NCBI RefSeq assembly: GCF_000194625.1
Contig: NC_015320.1
Location: forward strand, 1,410,612 to 1,474,611
DNA length: 64,000 bases
Reading direction: 5' to 3'
Source of the DNA: Archaeoglobus veneficus SNP6
Lineage (GTDB): Archaea > Halobacteriota > Archaeoglobi > Archaeoglobales > Archaeoglobaceae
The position numbers were made by a program, and so were the translations under genes. The notes under the pieces were generated by a model. That model was not told where the DNA came from, made no database searches, and saw only the letters and a program-made list of their open reading frames with translations. Shown here one piece after another: positions 9,711-51,313 of this stretch. Position 1 is the first letter of the stretch; every line of letters begins with the position of its first letter.

Positions 9711-10346
9711 TTATAGTATCCTTTCACCTATCTCAATACCCCCGTTGGTAAGCTTGAGCTCATAGTAGTCAGTAGGAGGGGCAATGGGATTCTTCTTCAC
9801 CCTTATGCCTCTTCTTATGTTGAAGCCCTCTATGATCTCCTCTATTTCTATAACCACATCAGATGATTCCTCAAACATTGCTCTCGTTTTCATATCGCTG
9901 AGGGCTTTATCGAGGGTGAATATGGCCGTGGAGTTCCTGCTCCGGATGTGGTTACACAGATCTGTGCAGAAGGCAAACACTTTATCAGGTTTATGCAGAA
10001 CAAGGAGTGACGAAAGGAGAAAGAATACTACAAGCTCCGCATTTCTTCTTCTTATTGAGTCACCTATGGTGTACAGTTCTTCGAGGCTTATGTCCCCATT
10101 TTCGGGAGCAATCATCTCATAACTTCCGCTACCATCACCCACAAAACGAATCATATCCCTCATTCTTCTCTTTCCCAGCAGAATCAGGACTTTCCTGCCG
10201 TTTCTGAGGGCGTTAACAATGAACCCGAGGACTACCTCCTCACCGAGCCCACCGACAGTTTCCACAAGGACTGTTCTTCCTTCCTCTACTCCTCCACCAA
10301 GTAGCCTGTCGAGAGCAGTACCGGAGGAGAACATGGCAACCCTCAC
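9711..10346 (-). CDS. Degenerate KaiC/RecA-like protein without Walker A
   Basis: A 211-residue protein with the overall pattern of a KaiC/RAD55-type domain (TALDRLLGGGVEEGRTVLVETVGG, then VLILLGKRR and a late RRGIRVKKNP), but with no GxxxxGK[ST] P-loop: the position reads ETVGGLGEEV. It is therefore unlikely to hydrolyse ATP by itself. The GTG start at 10346 overlaps the stop of the intact KaiC-like gene upstream by 4 bases, so the two are translationally coupled and may form a heteromer. An ATG at 10334 is an alternative start. Confidence 0.7.
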   Translation of the reverse strand: MRVAMFSSGTALDRLLGGGVEEGRTVLVETVGGLGEEVVLGFIVNALRNGRKVLILLGKRRMRDMIRFVGDGSGSYEMIAPENGDISLEELYTIGDSIRRRNAELVVFFLLSSLLVLHKPDKVFAFCTDLCNHIRSRNSTAIFTLDKALSDMKTRAMFEESSDVVIEIEEIIEGFNIRRGIRVKKNPIAPPTDYYELKLTNGGIEIGERIL

Positions 10347-11035
10347 TCAAAGATGTTCTCCTCACTGAATACTTTTATTCCTTCCGATGTTATGCGGTAC
10401 GGTCTGATGGACTCATCAAAGGCGGTACCCCTCATCTTTCTTATTCTAATTCCTCTAATCAGCCTGCCTCTTATCTCGTACTCAACGTACTCTATAACTC
10501 CGCTCACCAGGAAATCCTCCGGAGAAACCCCGGTTTTTTCAGAAGTCAGCAGCGCCGTAACCTTGTGAACCTTGAAGATATTGAAGAGAGACATCATGTC
10601 CCTCCTGTACTCAACCTCGCTTTTTGAGGCGAGCTCGAGTATGGTTATGGGGTCTACGACGATTCTTGTGGGTTTCAGTTCCTCGATTTTTGCCTCCAGT
10701 GCAGCTTTGAAACCGGGAATATCAAGTTCGAGATTTCTAAAAAACGAGTTTCCGAAAAGAGTTTCTCCTGAAGGTGAAGCGTCGAACATGTGTATGTTAT
10801 CGAAACTATCAATATCAACCCCCACGTTTTTCATGTCCTCCTTTACCTCATTTATGGGCTCTTCAAGGGTAACATATATGCAGTTCTCGCCCCTTTTTGC
10901 GCCCTCCACAAGAAACAGCATCGAAAGTATTGTCTTTCCGCTACCCGGCCCTCCCTTTACGAGGTATGTTCTACCGGGAATAAGTCCACCGTTAAGCATC
11001 TCATCGAGGCCCTCGACACCCGTTGATGCACGCAT
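10343..11035 (-). CDS. KaiC-like RecA-superfamily ATPase
   Basis: A 230-residue single-domain KaiC-type protein: TGVEGLDEMLNGGLIPGRTYL is the classic KaiC opening, Walker A is GGPGSGKT (28-35), and the Walker B-like strand is RIVVDPITILE. The domain ends with the beta-rich EYEIRGRLIRGIRIRKMRGT. Such archaeal proteins are cytosolic signalling or regulatory ATPases of unknown target. It is coupled to the P-loop-less relative downstream. A TATA box (ATATTTATATTTTG on the minus strand near 11,057-11,070) supports transcription from here. Confidence 0.88.
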   Translation of the reverse strand: MRASTGVEGLDEMLNGGLIPGRTYLVKGGPGSGKTILSMLFLVEGAKRGENCIYVTLEEPINEVKEDMKNVGVDIDSFDNIHMFDASPSGETLFGNSFFRNLELDIPGFKAALEAKIEELKPTRIVVDPITILELASKSEVEYRRDMMSLFNIFKVHKVTALLTSEKTGVSPEDFLVSGVIEYVEYEIRGRLIRGIRIRKMRGTAFDESIRPYRITSEGIKVFSEENIFE

Positions 11036-11203
11036 CGTTGAAAGATCACAACTTCAAAATATAAATATCTTTGGCTTTAATCTGGATATATTTTAAAGCT
11101 GTAGAAAATTTAAACTCAGTTTTATTTTTTGTCGATTTCATAATAAGATACTGGCATCGACATACTCATCAACTCTATATATCCACCGGCCCGTAGCCAT
11201 TCT

Positions 11204-45907: not shown

Positions 45908-46822
45908 ATGGCAGATTTTACTGCGAGCGAGGCAGCTGAAGTACTTCTTGCCATTAGAATGAAGCTCATCAAGGTCCTTGCTATCATCGCTATTACGTGG
46001 GCGATAGTCTTCGCTTTCGTTGCAGATCCTCTTCTTACAAAGGTCGTGGATGACCTCTATCCCGGAAATGTAGAACAGAGCAGAAACCTGGAGGAAATTT
46101 CTCACGTTTCAAGTGAGCTAAAAAGAATTGCAAGTATCCTCGATAGTTATGTAGCGAATCCAAACAACGAGTCGGCTATGAAAAATGCATCTCAGGCGTT
46201 GAAAGAGCTTTCAAAGATAGCTTTGAAAGTTAGTGCCTCACCCATATACCTGAGACCCCTTGAAGGGCTGATTTTGAAGCTTAAAATCTCGCTAATATTT
46301 GGAATTGTTGTAGCTCTGCCATACATTTTGCACCTTTCCTATAGAACCTTAAAAACGAGAACAGATTTGCTGGAAAATGTTTCAGTTACAAAAAGCCAGG
46401 CAGTTAGGTATGGTTTGGTATCGGCTATTCTCTTTGTACTCGGTGTGATCTACGGCTATTTCCTTCTGAAGTTCTTTCTGGTATTTCTCTACGGTAGCGC
46501 TGAGAAACAGGGAGTAATTCCCCTGTATTCTCTTTCTGAATTTGTCAGCTTTGTTGTGTTGATGCTCACGATTTTTGGCATCGTTTTTCAGATGCCTCTT
46601 GTGATGCTCTTTCTCGTCGGAAACAGCATAGTCGAATACAGAACGCTGACGTACTACAGAAGACACTTCTACGTGACATTCTTTGTGATAGGGGCTGCAA
46701 TAACTCCACCAGACGTTTTCACGCAGTTAATGGTAGCCCTTCCAATGGTTGTCTTCTTCGAGTTGAGTTTGCTCCTGACGAGGATCGTGCACCGGGATAA
46801 GATTAAGGGGGCAAAGGTTTAA
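45908..46822 (+). CDS. tatC: Sec-independent protein translocase TatC with enlarged first external loop
   Basis: A 304-residue six-helix membrane protein that recognises twin-arginine signal peptides. The second half is typical: LEGLILKLKISLIFGIVVALPYILHLSYR, LLKFFLVFLYG, IFGIVFQMPLVMLFLVG, YYRRHFYVTFFVIGAAITPPDVFTQLMVALPMVVFFELSLLL. Between helix 1 (about residues 22-42) and the conserved loop end lies an unusual 60-residue helical insertion (VEQSRNLEEISHVSSELKRIASILDSY...). No tatA adjoins it. Confidence 0.88.
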   Translation: MADFTASEAAEVLLAIRMKLIKVLAIIAITWAIVFAFVADPLLTKVVDDLYPGNVEQSRNLEEISHVSSELKRIASILDSYVANPNNESAMKNASQALKELSKIALKVSASPIYLRPLEGLILKLKISLIFGIVVALPYILHLSYRTLKTRTDLLENVSVTKSQAVRYGLVSAILFVLGVIYGYFLLKFFLVFLYGSAEKQGVIPLYSLSEFVSFVVLMLTIFGIVFQMPLVMLFLVGNSIVEYRTLTYYRRHFYVTFFVIGAAITPPDVFTQLMVALPMVVFFELSLLLTRIVHRDKIKGAKV

Positions 46823-46826
46823 ATAG
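46813..46826 (+). promoter_or_regulatory. Promoter of the KaiC-GTPase-Roadblock-V4R operon
   Basis: AAAGGTTTAAATAG overlaps the tatC stop codon and lies 22-35 bases before the ATG at 46,848. The signalling operon therefore has its own promoter, although read-through from tatC is possible. Confidence 0.6.
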
Positions 46827-46847: not shown

Positions 46848-47501
46848 ATGGTGAAACTTGACATCATAAATGTTGACGTTCCTCCGGGCAGCAACCTCAT
46901 GGTTTACGGCCCTCCGCTTATAGGAAAATCCATTTTCGTCAGGAACCTCTTTTATGAGAAGGTCAGCAGCGGTTTTGGCGGGATTTACATTTCCACGAAA
47001 GATACAGCAGAGACGCTCATAGACTGGTTCAAGGGTGTGGGTCTCGAGGATTTCAGGATTATCGACTGCGTATCGAAAGCGATGATGGACGATATCTCCG
47101 ACACAGATACGATAAAAAGAGTCTCGATAATGGATTTGACTGGAATCTCGGTGAGGGTTAATGGATTTCTCGAAGACTACTGGAGATCTGGTGTAAGAGA
47201 AGTTCTCCTGACTTTTGATACGATATCTACTCTTCTAATGTATCTCAACCCTCAAACGGTATTCAGGTTTCTTCACGTGCTAACGAGCAGGCTGAGGGCC
47301 GCTGGAGCCATCGGGCTCTATGTTGTAGAAGAGGGTATGCACGACGACAAGACGACCGCAACACTAAAGCAGCTATTTAGTGGAATAATTGAACTCAAGG
47401 AAGAAGACGGCAGGAGATTTTTCAGGTTCATAAGTTCTTCTGTCAGGACGGAATGGATGGAGTTTACTGTTGAGGAAGACAGAATAGTGGTGATAGCATG
47501 A
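46848..47501 (+). CDS. KaiC/RecA-like ATPase, first gene of a signalling operon
   Basis: A 217-residue protein with Walker A GPPLIGKS (21-28), YISTKDTAETLIDWFKGVGL as in KaiC/RAD55 domains, a Walker B-like strand VLLTFDTIST and a C-terminal domain ending WMEFTVEEDRIVVIA. It is a RecA-superfamily signalling ATPase of unknown target. Its stop overlaps the next gene (a GTPase fusion) by 4 bases; genes for Roadblock/LC7 and V4R proteins follow, which suggests a joint cytosolic signalling complex. Confidence 0.85.
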   Translation: MVKLDIINVDVPPGSNLMVYGPPLIGKSIFVRNLFYEKVSSGFGGIYISTKDTAETLIDWFKGVGLEDFRIIDCVSKAMMDDISDTDTIKRVSIMDLTGISVRVNGFLEDYWRSGVREVLLTFDTISTLLMYLNPQTVFRFLHVLTSRLRAAGAIGLYVVEEGMHDDKTTATLKQLFSGIIELKEEDGRRFFRFISSSVRTEWMEFTVEEDRIVVIA

Positions 47502-48655
47502 AGGTAGGTATCCCTGTTCTCGAAGAGATTTTACGTGAGCTACCCAGAGGAAAGACGCTGACGTACTACATTGATCCCGAAGTCGAGGGGGACGTTTTTG
47601 CAATGCAAACTCTCTACACAAACCTTGAGGAAGGCTACAAGTGCGCCTACGTAACCTCAACAATGACCCCTGCAAGCGTTAGGAACAGATTTAGGGAATT
47701 CGGCTGGGAACTCGATGACTTTCCGAACTTCTCAATGGTTGATGCGTACTCCGGTTTTGTTGGAGACATTTCAGGAGAAAGATACGTTGTCAAAGACCCT
47801 TCCAACCCCACCGAACTCGACGAAACAATCAGAAAAGTGGTTAAAGAAAACGACCTCGTCGTTATTACTCTATCCGCCATGATTGACGTCTGTGGCGAGG
47901 AGTTCGTTGGGATTGCAGAAGGGTGGGTACAGCATGCAGCCCTGAACGATTCGTGTCTCGTTATAAGCTTCGTCGCCTGGCCTTACTCAGACAAGGTCAT
48001 CCAACAAGTAAAAGACATGTCCAATGCTGTCGTTAGTGTTGGAGGAATCCACCACAGGGTTGTGCTCGGACACTACTATGGCCTTTTAAAGGCCGATTGG
48101 GTTGACGTTGAAGGAAAGGCCGTCCTTTTCAGGCTCGTAAAGCCCGGAGGAATTAGAGCATACATACCCAAGATTCTCGTTACCGGGCCATTTAACGCAG
48201 GAAAGTCGAGTTTCGTACATGCCGTCTCGGACAGGGCTGTATCCGTCGATAGACTCGGCACAACTGTAGCTTTAGACCACGGACACGTTGAGTACAAGGG
48301 TTTCTCTATAGACATCTTCGGCACGCCTGGACAGGAGAGGTTCGACCCACTGCTCAAGTTTCTGGGTAAAGAAGCGCTTGGAGTTATACTCGTTGTTGAT
48401 TCAACTCGCCCGGAGACATTCCCGAGGGCGAAGCAGATGCTCGAAGCAACTACCCGCTTTGGCCTACCCTACGTTATCGCTGCAAACAAGCAAGACCTAC
48501 CAGGTGCATTGAGTCCAGAGGAGATTCGCAAAAGAATGGCTCTGCCCGAAAACGTACCGGTAATTCCTACGGTTGCGAGAGATAAGAAAGGTGTGTACGA
48601 AGTTATAGATGCTCTGTTAAATCTACTCATAGGTGGTAAGTATGGCGAGTCTTAG
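47498..48655 (+). CDS. KaiC-like domain (no Walker A) fused to Ras-like GTPase
   Basis: A 385-residue fusion. Residues 1-215 align in pattern with the preceding KaiC-like protein (YVTSTMTPASVRNRFREFGWELDDF) but lack a P-loop. Residues 222-380 are a small GTPase of the MglA/COG2229 kind: G1 GPFNAGKS (230-237), switch I TT (255-256), G3 DIFGTPGQE (272-280) and G4 NKQD (330-333). The regulator of such GTPases is usually a Roadblock/LC7 protein, encoded next here with a 14-base overlap. The domain order (pseudo-ATPase then GTPase) is unusual. Confidence 0.85.
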   Translation: MKVGIPVLEEILRELPRGKTLTYYIDPEVEGDVFAMQTLYTNLEEGYKCAYVTSTMTPASVRNRFREFGWELDDFPNFSMVDAYSGFVGDISGERYVVKDPSNPTELDETIRKVVKENDLVVITLSAMIDVCGEEFVGIAEGWVQHAALNDSCLVISFVAWPYSDKVIQQVKDMSNAVVSVGGIHHRVVLGHYYGLLKADWVDVEGKAVLFRLVKPGGIRAYIPKILVTGPFNAGKSSFVHAVSDRAVSVDRLGTTVALDHGHVEYKGFSIDIFGTPGQERFDPLLKFLGKEALGVILVVDSTRPETFPRAKQMLEATTRFGLPYVIAANKQDLPGALSPEEIRKRMALPENVPVIPTVARDKKGVYEVIDALLNLLIGGKYGES

Positions 48656-49013
48656 GGAGATGCTCGAAAACGTTCTGAAGGATTTGAAATCAGTTGGAGA
48701 TGTTGAAGCCTCGGCCATCGTGTCGAGAGATGGGTTGCTCATCGCTGCAGACATTCCGCAAAGCGTTAACGCTGAAGCTTTCGCAGCAATGACTGCTACG
48801 ATGCTCGGTGCTGCTGAGACAGCAACTTCAGAACTTGGAAAAGGGATTCCCGACAGAGTGATTGTAGAGGGTAAAGACGGAAAAATAATAGCAACTGGGG
48901 CTGGAAGTAAGGCTCTGCTGGTTGCTATGACCACTCCAAAGGCAAATCTCGGACTGGTTCTTCTCGAACTGGGAAGAGCGAGTGAAAAAGTTAAAGAACT
49001 CCTGAAGGGGTGA
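48642..49013 (+). CDS. Roadblock/LC7 (MglB-like) protein
   Basis: A 123-residue single Roadblock/LC7 domain: LREMLENVLKDLKSVGDVEASAIVSRDGLLIAADIPQSVNAEAFAAMTATMLGAAETATSELG, then GKIIATGAGSKALLVAMTTPKANLGLVLLELGRA. In bacteria MglB-type proteins are GTPase-activating partners of MglA. ATG 48,642 follows AGGTGGT. The start lies inside the upstream GTPase gene, so the two products are made together, as expected for a partner protein. Confidence 0.92.
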   Translation: MASLREMLENVLKDLKSVGDVEASAIVSRDGLLIAADIPQSVNAEAFAAMTATMLGAAETATSELGKGIPDRVIVEGKDGKIIATGAGSKALLVAMTTPKANLGLVLLELGRASEKVKELLKG

Positions 49014-49017
49014 GAAC

Positions 49018-49617
49018 ATGGTAGATCCGTTTGAGGTTCTCGTCAGTGAGGACATCACTAACTGGACGAGGGAAGAGATAGTAAATGTCTTTCTGAGGTA
49101 TGAAAATGGCAAGGTGATTTTCATAGAGAAGGCTCACGTGGCGGCGATGTACAACACGTTTCTTGTGGGTCTTTACCTTGATCTCATGAGAATCGTTGGT
49201 GTTGCTGCAAAGGGACTGATCCTCAACGCAGCCAGAAACGGTGGTCTAAGGGCCGGAAAGGCAATAAGGAAGAGATACCAGAAGGAGAAGGGTGAACTTA
49301 CAAGAGATAAAGCCTGCAAGATCGCAAAGAACATGCTGGCGATATGGGCGAAGGGCTTTGCGTGGGGCAACATAGATGCAGACGTGAATTGCGAGGAAAT
49401 AAAGGTGAGAATCTTTGACTCATTTGAAGGTGACGGCTACAGAAGGCTGAGAAGAGAACCTGCGAAGCAGCCCATGTGCTGGATGATATTTGGCTACATG
49501 TGGGGTCTCTTTGAGGGCATTCTGGACAAGAAGCTTGAAGGCGAGGAAGTAGAATGTATAGCAATGGGCAACGAGCACTGCACCTTCGTGTTCAGAGCCG
49601 CCGAGGCCGGAGAATGA
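49018..49617 (+). CDS. V4R-domain protein
   Basis: A 199-residue protein with a V4R (4-vinyl reductase) domain in the C-terminal two thirds. It ends in the family signature EGILDKKLEGEEVECIAMGNEHCTFVF, whose Cys and His residues can bind metal or a small hydrophobic ligand; related domains occur in sensor proteins and in BchJ. It starts 4 bases after the Roadblock gene and is preceded by GGGGTGAGA. It is the likely input domain of the signalling operon (inference). Confidence 0.88.
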   Translation: MVDPFEVLVSEDITNWTREEIVNVFLRYENGKVIFIEKAHVAAMYNTFLVGLYLDLMRIVGVAAKGLILNAARNGGLRAGKAIRKRYQKEKGELTRDKACKIAKNMLAIWAKGFAWGNIDADVNCEEIKVRIFDSFEGDGYRRLRREPAKQPMCWMIFGYMWGLFEGILDKKLEGEEVECIAMGNEHCTFVFRAAEAGE

Positions 49618-49651: not shown

Positions 49652-50353
49652 ATGAGAATTCCCCTCTTCATCGAATTCGAAGGAAAGAAAGTCTTGATAA
49701 TCGGTGGAGGCGGAGTTGGTACCTCAAGAGCTAAGAAGTTCATAGAGGCTGGAGCCGTCGTTAAGGTGCTCAGCCTCGCGTTCAGCGATGAATTGAAGGA
49801 ACTTGAAAAGGCCGGAAAAGTTGAGTTGATTGAGGGTGATGCATTCGACAGGAGGAGGCTCGAGGAGCTACTTTCCTGGAGTGATCTCGTGACAGTAGCC
49901 ATTCCAAATCTTGAAGTTAACGACCTCATAATTGATATTGCAAAAAAGCACAAAACCCTCGTAAACCTCGCAAACGATGCAGAGAAGACAGAAGTCGTTG
50001 TGCCGTTCGAGGGGGAAGTTGAGGGAATCCGCTTTGCCGTAACTACTGAGGGCAAGAGTGGTGTCGTTGCAAGAAAAGTTAGAGATTCTTTCAGAAAAAT
50101 GCTCGAGGAGGATGAAGAAACCCTCTACTTCCTCAAGGCGATGTACCACCTCAAGCAGTACATGAAAGCCAACAACGTACCTGTACAGCTCAGAATGAAA
50201 CTCTACTTTGTAATTGCTGCCGATCCAGAGTTCAGGAAGCTCGTAAGCAGAGAGGACATAGAGGGAGCGAGGAGGTACGTAGAAAAACTTGTGGAAGAGT
50301 ACGTTTCTGGAAAGAGGAAGATTGATGAGAGCCTCGTAAAAATGCAGTTCTGA
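49652..50353 (+). CDS. Precorrin-2 dehydrogenase / sirohydrochlorin ferrochelatase-type protein
   Basis: A 233-residue protein of the Met8/SirC/CysG-N type: residues 1-110 hold a Rossmann domain (IPLFIEFEGKKVLIIGGGGVGTSRAKKFIEAGAVV, VTVAIPNLEVNDLIIDIAKK, LVNLANDAEKTEVVVPFEGEVEGIRFAVTTEGKSG). It oxidises precorrin-2 to sirohydrochlorin with NAD and may also insert iron. The next gene uses siroheme, so the pair forms part of the alternative (siroheme-dependent) heme pathway. Confidence 0.92.
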   Translation: MRIPLFIEFEGKKVLIIGGGGVGTSRAKKFIEAGAVVKVLSLAFSDELKELEKAGKVELIEGDAFDRRRLEELLSWSDLVTVAIPNLEVNDLIIDIAKKHKTLVNLANDAEKTEVVVPFEGEVEGIRFAVTTEGKSGVVARKVRDSFRKMLEEDEETLYFLKAMYHLKQYMKANNVPVQLRMKLYFVIAADPEFRKLVSREDIEGARRYVEKLVEEYVSGKRKIDESLVKMQF

Positions 50354-50362
50354 GGTGCTGAA

Positions 50363-51313
50363 ATGTTTTCTGAAAACGATGTCAGGCTTTTAATGGCTAT
50401 TCAGTACAGGTTGCCCCTCTGTGAGCAACCACTTCTGGAACTTGCTGAGCGTGAGAAGCTTGATCCCGATTTCGTTTTGCGCAGGGTTAAAGAGTTCAGG
50501 GAAAAAGGTGTCATAAAGCGCTATGGTGCGAATCTCAACTACAGGGCATTCTCGACAGAACATAAAGCAGCCCTCGTTGGGGCAAACGTTGAAGAGGACA
50601 GAATCAAAGAGGTTGCGCGCATAATAAATGCTGCAAATCCTAAGCACAATTACTGGAGAGAACATGAGCACTACTCCGTATGGTTCACCATAAAGGCAAG
50701 GAACGAGGAGGAGCTTTTCTCGAAGATAGATGAGCTTATGAAAAAATGCAATGTTGAAGATTACGTCGTTCTGCCAACGAAGAGAGTTTACAAGATGGAC
50801 GTTAAGTACGACCTCATAAAGGGTATTTCGTGGAGTGAAAAGAGCTTGGAGAAATTCGACGTGCCGAAGGTGGAGGAGCTTGGCCTCGATGCTTCTCTGC
50901 TGAGAAGACTCGAGAGCCTCGATGTCTGCGAGAGGCCTTTTTCGAAGTTTGCAGAAAATGGATACACCGAAAGTGAACTTGTTGATCTGATTGCGGAGTT
51001 AATAAAAAAGGGTGTCGTGAGAGACTTCAGCGGAGTTCTGAAGGAGAGAAAGATTGGCTTTTTAGAGAACGGTATGACCGTGATAAAGACCGATAATCCA
51101 GAGAAGCTCGCTCTCAAGCTCGTCGAAGAACTTCCTCAAATCACCCATCTCGTCGAAAGAAAGGTTCCCGACGGATGGCAATATCCGCTGTACTTTATGG
51201 TTCACGCAACCCGAAGAGAGCCTATCGAGAAGATAAGAGAGAGCCTGAGAGGTTACGGCGTTGAGGATACAAGAACTCTCTACAGCAAAGCAGACTTAAA
51301 GGAACAGGCGTGA
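50363..51313 (+). CDS. Siroheme decarboxylase, AhbA-AhbB type fused in one chain
   Basis: A 316-residue protein with two AsnC/Lrp-like units: residues 1-150 (LLMAIQYRLPLCEQPLLELAEREKLDPDFVLRRVKEFREKGVIKRYGANLNYRAF, HNYWREHEHYSVWFTIKA) and about 165-310 (LRRLESLDVCERPFSKFAENGYTESELVDLIAELIKKGVVRDFSGVL). AhbA/AhbB remove acetate carboxyls of siroheme to give didecarboxysiroheme on the way to heme. Usually two separate proteins, here they appear as one chain. The second unit is less conserved. Confidence 0.88.
   Translation: MFSENDVRLLMAIQYRLPLCEQPLLELAEREKLDPDFVLRRVKEFREKGVIKRYGANLNYRAFSTEHKAALVGANVEEDRIKEVARIINAANPKHNYWREHEHYSVWFTIKARNEEELFSKIDELMKKCNVEDYVVLPTKRVYKMDVKYDLIKGISWSEKSLEKFDVPKVEELGLDASLLRRLESLDVCERPFSKFAENGYTESELVDLIAELIKKGVVRDFSGVLKERKIGFLENGMTVIKTDNPEKLALKLVEELPQITHLVERKVPDGWQYPLYFMVHATRREPIEKIRESLRGYGVEDTRTLYSKADLKEQA

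Follow-up and report, generated by a model that had tools for sequence, protein, structure and literature searches.

We find that three adjoining genes of Archaeoglobus veneficus SNP6, encoding a KaiC-like protein, an inactivated KaiC domain fused to a Ras-like GTPase, and a Roadblock/LC7 protein, are conserved as a closely spaced, operon-like cluster and make up a widely inherited signalling unit. We consider it about 60% probable that this module works as an MglA/MglB-type switch of archaea, carried on a scaffold of KaiC fold. The stretch of DNA analysed, here called the window, is 64 kb long and comes from a genome consisting of a single contig of 1,901,943 bases, whose closest named relatives are Archaeoglobales MAGs.

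All genes of the module lie on the + strand. Gene 1 (46848..47501, 217 aa) encodes the KaiC-like protein, with Pfam matches to DUF7504 (7e-24) and KaiC (9e-11). Gene 2 (47498..48655, 385 aa) combines the inactivated KaiC domain (aa 1-215; KaiC 7e-10) with an MglA-type G domain (aa 222-377; Arf 7e-14, Ras 4e-11). The Roadblock/LC7 protein is encoded by gene 3 (48642..49013, 123 aa; Robl_LC7 3e-18) and is followed by a V4R protein, gene 4 (49018..49617, 199 aa; V4R 3e-13), which is accessory and mainly limited to Archaeoglobaceae. Genes 1 and 2 overlap by 4 nt (ATGA), the Roadblock ATG at 48642 falls 14 nt within gene 2, which ends at 48655, and a gap of 4 nt separates the Roadblock stop from the V4R start. 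These coordinates bear out the preliminary description, which had placed four tightly coupled open reading frames here with the Roadblock start inside the GTPase gene, and every domain assignment is backed by Pfam. An archaeal TATA-box-like element, TTTAAATA (46818..46825, + strand), overlaps the stop codon of tatC (46820-46822) and is a plausible promoter; the element occurs six times in the 64 kb, compared with 2.16 occurrences expected. Transcription starting about 25 nt downstream of it would make the mRNA almost leaderless. A scan for sigma-70 promoters and terminators, which is ill-suited to archaea, gave nothing above chance.

In order to see how the genes are inherited, we searched with gene 2 over 394 genomes of the phylum and obtained matches in 90, many of them full length. 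A second collection, which overlaps with the phylum set, supplied 80 named archaeal loci in which the fusion occurs. Gene 1 adjoins gene 2 in 76 of the 80. Contig ends cut off three of the remaining loci, and in the last, from an Alkanophaga, gene 1 matches more weakly, below the cut-off. The Roadblock gene is directly downstream of gene 2 in 76/80 loci, upstream in two (both Alkanophagales) and lost to contig ends in the remaining two. Taking 76 loci together, genes 1 and 2 are separated by a median of +1 nt and genes 2 and 3 by a median of -1 nt, a spacing far tighter than chance would give; where V4R follows the Roadblock, the median gap is +4 nt. Hosts include Archaeoglobaceae, ANME-2, Methanoperedens, GoM-Arc1, Alkanophagales and Methanosarcinales/Methanocellales MAGs. 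In a tree of 61 gene 2 proteins, which covers only relatives of the KaiC-GTPase fusion and is rooted at the midpoint only, the Archaeoglobaceae group together in one clade (100/100), and a separate clade (100/100) unites the methanogen families that lack an adjacent Roadblock. Failure of the four genes to co-occur in related genomes had been set beforehand as a refuting condition. The three-gene core survives this check in the 80 named loci, while a four-gene system of general occurrence is refuted.

Three further observations concern the distribution of the triad. It was considered as a marker of anaerobic methanotrophs and rejected, as Archaeoglobaceae also carry it; genomes that we take to be Methanocella, which are methanogens, carry it as well and also count against that idea. 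One triad, at 58% identity, is found in a Hydrothermarchaeota MAG (L109) and may reflect horizontal transfer or misbinning. Family f31 has a second, divergent version of the triad (L044:2-2410, with second copies also in L041 and L043) that runs in reverse, as Roadblock, fusion, KaiC-like, and that in L044 adjoins a multi-PAS sensor protein.

The G domain of gene 2 carries an intact P-loop, GPFNAGKS (G1; 48185..48208, + strand), with its GK unchanged in every row of both alignments (35/35 and 55/55), and a G4 motif NKQD of the NKxD type (48485..48496, + strand) that is invariant in 55/55. Its G3 is GTPGQ (48320..48334, + strand), with the Asp of DxxG replaced by Gly. Complete G1, G3 and G4 motifs had been claimed for this domain; G1 and G4 stand, and G3 is not the canonical DxxGQ but of the MglA type. 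Among the 55 Roadblock-linked relatives, the G1 GK, the switch I TT, GTP, Q279, R281, R252 and NKxD are all invariant; R252, an Arg of switch I, is a candidate intrinsic finger. GTPGQ in G3 together with Thr in place of Arg beside the G2 Thr is the signature of MglA groups 2-5 (PMC4316618), and the gene 2 domain shows both, having GTPGQ with TT in G2. Like archaeal MglA, it has no insertion between G1 and G2 (PMC4316618). MglA proteins are defined as single-domain proteins of 150-240 aa, whereas gene 2 encodes 385 aa with an N-terminal KaiC domain, and for this reason we speak of an MglA-type G domain rather than of an MglA. The KaiC-GTPase fusion type fell outside the 2014 MglA survey because proteins above 240 aa were left out there (PMC4316618). 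Sequence searches reached Arf and Rab better than MglA, and the PDB chains matched include MglA and MglB.

Several lines of evidence connect this G domain to the Roadblock protein. Gene 2 is the one Ras/Arf-like small GTPase in the A. veneficus genome, the next match being FeoB, and the genome's only Roadblock gene adjoins it. Gene 3 shows features of MglB/Roadblock regulators: a Roadblock/LC7 domain of about 120 aa, coupling to a GTPase gene, and SRDG, which corresponds to the Asp-Gly pair of coupled MglBs (compared with PMC4316618). In one locus, L042, KaiC, GTPase and Roadblock domains are fused in a single open reading frame of 523 aa. Given the sole Roadblock beside the sole small GTPase, this natural fusion and the conserved adjacency, the two proteins are likely to be a functional pair. 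The Roadblock gene is not obligatory in cis, since genes 1 and 2 lack an adjacent Roadblock in 25/25 loci of three methanogen families, and Roadblocks are encoded elsewhere in 24 of those 25 genomes. In rows of this methanogen clade, without an adjacent Roadblock, Q279 is replaced in 3/10 and R281 in 4/10. Such erosion fits relaxed selection on Roadblock-assisted hydrolysis, but with Roadblocks elsewhere in those genomes and an altered motif in L042 as well, it is consistent with a GAP role without proving one. Since the fused L042 protein is changed at Q279 (GTPGH), a change at this residue does not cleanly mark the loss of a Roadblock. Sequence and gene order thus support the proposed MglA/MglB-type pair, through the conserved adjacency, the natural fusion, the one-to-one genome content, the GTPGQ motif and the relaxation of catalytic residues in loci that lack an adjoining Roadblock.

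An AlphaFold model of gene 2 (pLDDT 90.1, pTM 0.84) has an N domain whose structure matches the RecA/KaiC-fold protein PH0284 (E 9e-17). The P-loop (Walker A) lysine is replaced by Gly, Val, Ser, Ala or Cys in this domain, without exception across the 35 and the 55 aligned rows, and we call the domain pseudo-KaiC for this reason. The alignment, together with the Pfam matches to KaiC and Arf/Ras, agrees with the earlier description of a P-loop-less KaiC copy fused to a Ras-like GTPase. An apparently intact P-loop in 69 gene 2 N domains was rejected, the regular expression having matched a GGIPxGK[ST] strand before the P-loop; the aligned position is without lysine. Gene 1 had been described as a RecA-type ATPase with Walker A. 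The motif is intact in A. veneficus (GPPLIGKS, of the GK[ST] form) but is not conserved across the family: GK[ST] is kept in most Archaeoglobaceae, GKE or GKD is found in most ANME, and the methanogen families are without the lysine. ATP hydrolysis is unlikely as a conserved function because the P-loop is degenerate or missing in the KaiC parts, and GTPase activity is probably what is conserved.

Gene 1 is a member of the Pfam DUF7504 family. KaiC-like proteins of this family without gene 2 are present in Methanosarcinaceae and haloarchaea (L179-L194), with degenerate Walker A motifs (GKE, RKD, GKR). The relatives inspected there, unlike gene 1, have no GTPase linkage, and as gene 1 stands alone in both groups it has roles outside the module. 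The window itself contains a second overlapping KaiC-like pair (9714-11053, - strand), apart from the module, of which one gene has a strong KaiC match and the other a weak one (KaiC/DUF7504).

We also examined the V4R protein, which had been taken for a standard fourth component. This did not hold, and V4R as an essential part of the module was rejected, as it follows the module's Roadblock in 13/14 Archaeoglobaceae loci and is a direct neighbour in 0/66 others. The sole exception outside Archaeoglobaceae is a divergent V4R beside a second Roadblock copy in L165 and L090. The model of gene 4 (pLDDT 88.9) is closest to the phenol sensor PoxR (E 1e-10, TM 0.70) and to MopR (TM about 0.67), followed by TRAPPC3/Bet3 and Thorarchaeal TRAPPC3 (E 4e-6 to 1e-3, TM about 0.45-0.65); H-NOX structures are weakly matched. 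A zinc site is predicted at Cys154/Glu177/Cys180/Cys188 (49477..49581, + strand), residues that align with the PoxR/MopR zinc ligands; the corresponding ligands of DmpR are Cys151, Glu172, Cys177 and Cys185 (PMC7264223). Among V4R relatives Cys154, Cys180 and Cys188 are invariant and Glu177 is present in at least 90%. Gene 4 thus has the V4R fold and the predicted zinc ligands of PoxR/MopR-type sensors, and the natural inference by analogy is that it would act as a ligand or redox sensor. It shares its fold and the Cys/Glu at the predicted zinc positions with the V4R sensor domains of PoxR, MopR, DmpR and MsvR, but unlike these it stands alone, without an AAA+ or DNA-binding domain. The other V4R protein of the A. 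veneficus genome resembles MsvR on inspection and seems to have a winged-helix region at its N terminus.

In the switch that we propose, the inactivated KaiC domain in gene 2 would pair with the gene 1 product to give a scaffold resembling KaiC/ArlH-type subunits, and the G domain would alternate between its GDP- and GTP-bound states. A homodimer of the Roadblock protein would bind the switch regions of the G domain and control the cycle as a GAP, possibly as both GAP and GEF like MglB, and the complex in its GTP-bound state would bind an effector. In Archaeoglobaceae, a zinc-stabilised V4R dimer of PoxR/MopR-like build may have been added as a ligand or redox input. The GTPase-Roadblock partnership is well supported by the comparisons above; the assembly of the scaffold, the direction of regulation, the V4R input and the output are what we infer.

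Other explanations start from the neighbouring genes. Directly downstream of the module and on the same strand lie a precorrin-2 dehydrogenase/siroheme synthase N-domain gene (SirC; 49652..50353, +) and a fused AhbA-AhbB siroheme decarboxylase of the alternative heme pathway (50363..51313, +); other Archaeoglobaceae have both in this place, and we regard them as context and not as core. Siroheme/heme genes hold this downstream position in two Archaeoglobaceae genera, and AhbD (546 and 585 bits, cut-off 500) adjoins the module in GoM-Arc1 and in the divergent second copy L043. In the methanogen families, DtxR-FeoA and FeoB are directly upstream of genes 1 and 2 in most loci, which place these genes mostly between the Feo genes and DphB. 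Heme/siroheme or iron genes were thus seen beside the module in the window (49652-51313), in L095, L172 and L043, and in L045-L069. Such flanking, in several lineages, is suggestive only, as the pattern was spotted post hoc. It could mean that the GTPase switch signals the status of heme, siroheme or iron and tunes tetrapyrrole synthesis or the uptake of iron, with V4R, whose fold is related to H-NOX, as the Archaeoglobaceae sensor; the H-NOX matches in our fold search are weak. We consider this unlikely: most ANME-2/Methanoperedens loci are without such genes, their module neighbours including TruD (read by eye) and S19e ribosomal genes; gene order can come from shared ancestry; and no heme-binding residue was identified. 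A switch for polarity or surface appendages as in Myxococcus, with GTPase and Roadblock placing pili or archaella and the KaiC parts acting like ArlH, draws on the MglA/MglB precedent, on the weak similarity of gene 1 to ArlH/FlaH and on a report of Roadblock and KaiC-family genes close to type IV pilus loci of archaea (PMC4858521). Since the identified neighbours of the module include no recognisable pilus or archaellum gene, we hold it to be rather improbable.

The V4R protein and the KaiC folds suggest further alternatives. V4R (TRAPPC3/Bet3 fold) and Roadblock (longin-like fold) might form a TRAPP/Ragulator-like platform, a joint exchange factor for the GTPase. The TRAPPC3 matches of the V4R model, the published common ancestry of TRAPPC3 and V4R with its Asgard versions (PMC10933270), and the occurrence in L090/L165 of a divergent V4R next to a second Roadblock all fit such a platform. 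Nearly all other module-bearing lineages are without V4R, however, and the model is much nearer to PoxR/MopR than to TRAPPC3, which leaves the idea very unlikely. A bolder reading, which combines a ligand- or heme-gated GTPase switch, a KaiC-fold scaffold turned from an ATP-driven hub into the carrier of a Ras-like switch, and V4R plus Roadblock as a simple, ancestor-like TRAPP-type exchange platform, strikes us as decidedly improbable. As both gene 1 and gene 2 have KaiC folds, a KaiC-based timer with the GTPase as its output could also be imagined, and the preliminary description had the KaiC-like pair acting as effector or clockwork. An ATP-driven clockwork is not supported by the P-loops, as the fusion is never found with the lysine and the Walker A features of gene 1 are gone in most relatives, its P-loop ending in GKE/GKD in most ANME and lacking the lysine in the methanogen families. 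We give a timer next to no chance, and the loss of the P-loop also makes assignment to the KaiC circadian clock unlikely.

The MglA/MglB-type switch has known counterparts. In MglA-MglB of Myxococcus and Thermus and in other MglA groups a small GTPase gene likewise stands beside a Roadblock gene, and the G3 GTPGQ is common to the module and groups 2-5; the archaeal module differs in that its G domain sits behind an inactivated KaiC, nearly always with a KaiC-like gene. Archaeal KaiC-like ATPases have been proposed as signalling hubs, with inactivated copies called iKaiC (Makarova et al., 2017, as relayed in PMC5847659 and PMC6393860). As far as those accounts go, the hubs likewise combine a KaiC family member with an inactivated KaiC bearing an output domain, and the module is set apart by its output, a Ras-like GTPase with Roadblock. 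The Asgard GTPase/Roadblock/V4R-type system has the same three protein folds and includes GTPase-Roadblock fusions, but its genes are generally not in shared operons and KaiC parts are not involved (PMC10933270). The literature searched contained no description of the pseudo-KaiC-GTPase fusion with its operon, and no paper joining ANME, Roadblock and GTPase or a KaiC-like protein and a small GTPase in an operon. GTPase-Roadblock pairs, GTPase-Roadblock fusions and iKaiC hubs are already known kinds, and priority for the fusion and operon cannot be claimed.

Few archaeal families have expanded as much as the KaiC-like proteins, which are proposed signalling hubs with mostly obscure outputs. A dead KaiC joined to a KaiC-like partner, an MglA-type GTPase and a Roadblock protein is a concrete, testable tie between KaiC hubs and GTPase switches, and because the module is widespread in anaerobic methane oxidisers and Archaeoglobaceae it is open to biochemical study. 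It also bears on how GTPase-Roadblock pairs functioned before eukaryotes. A KaiC-free counterpart was seen in family f7 (L198:479-1729 and L071:3580-4867), where a stand-alone MglA-like GTPase gene has Roadblock genes on both sides.
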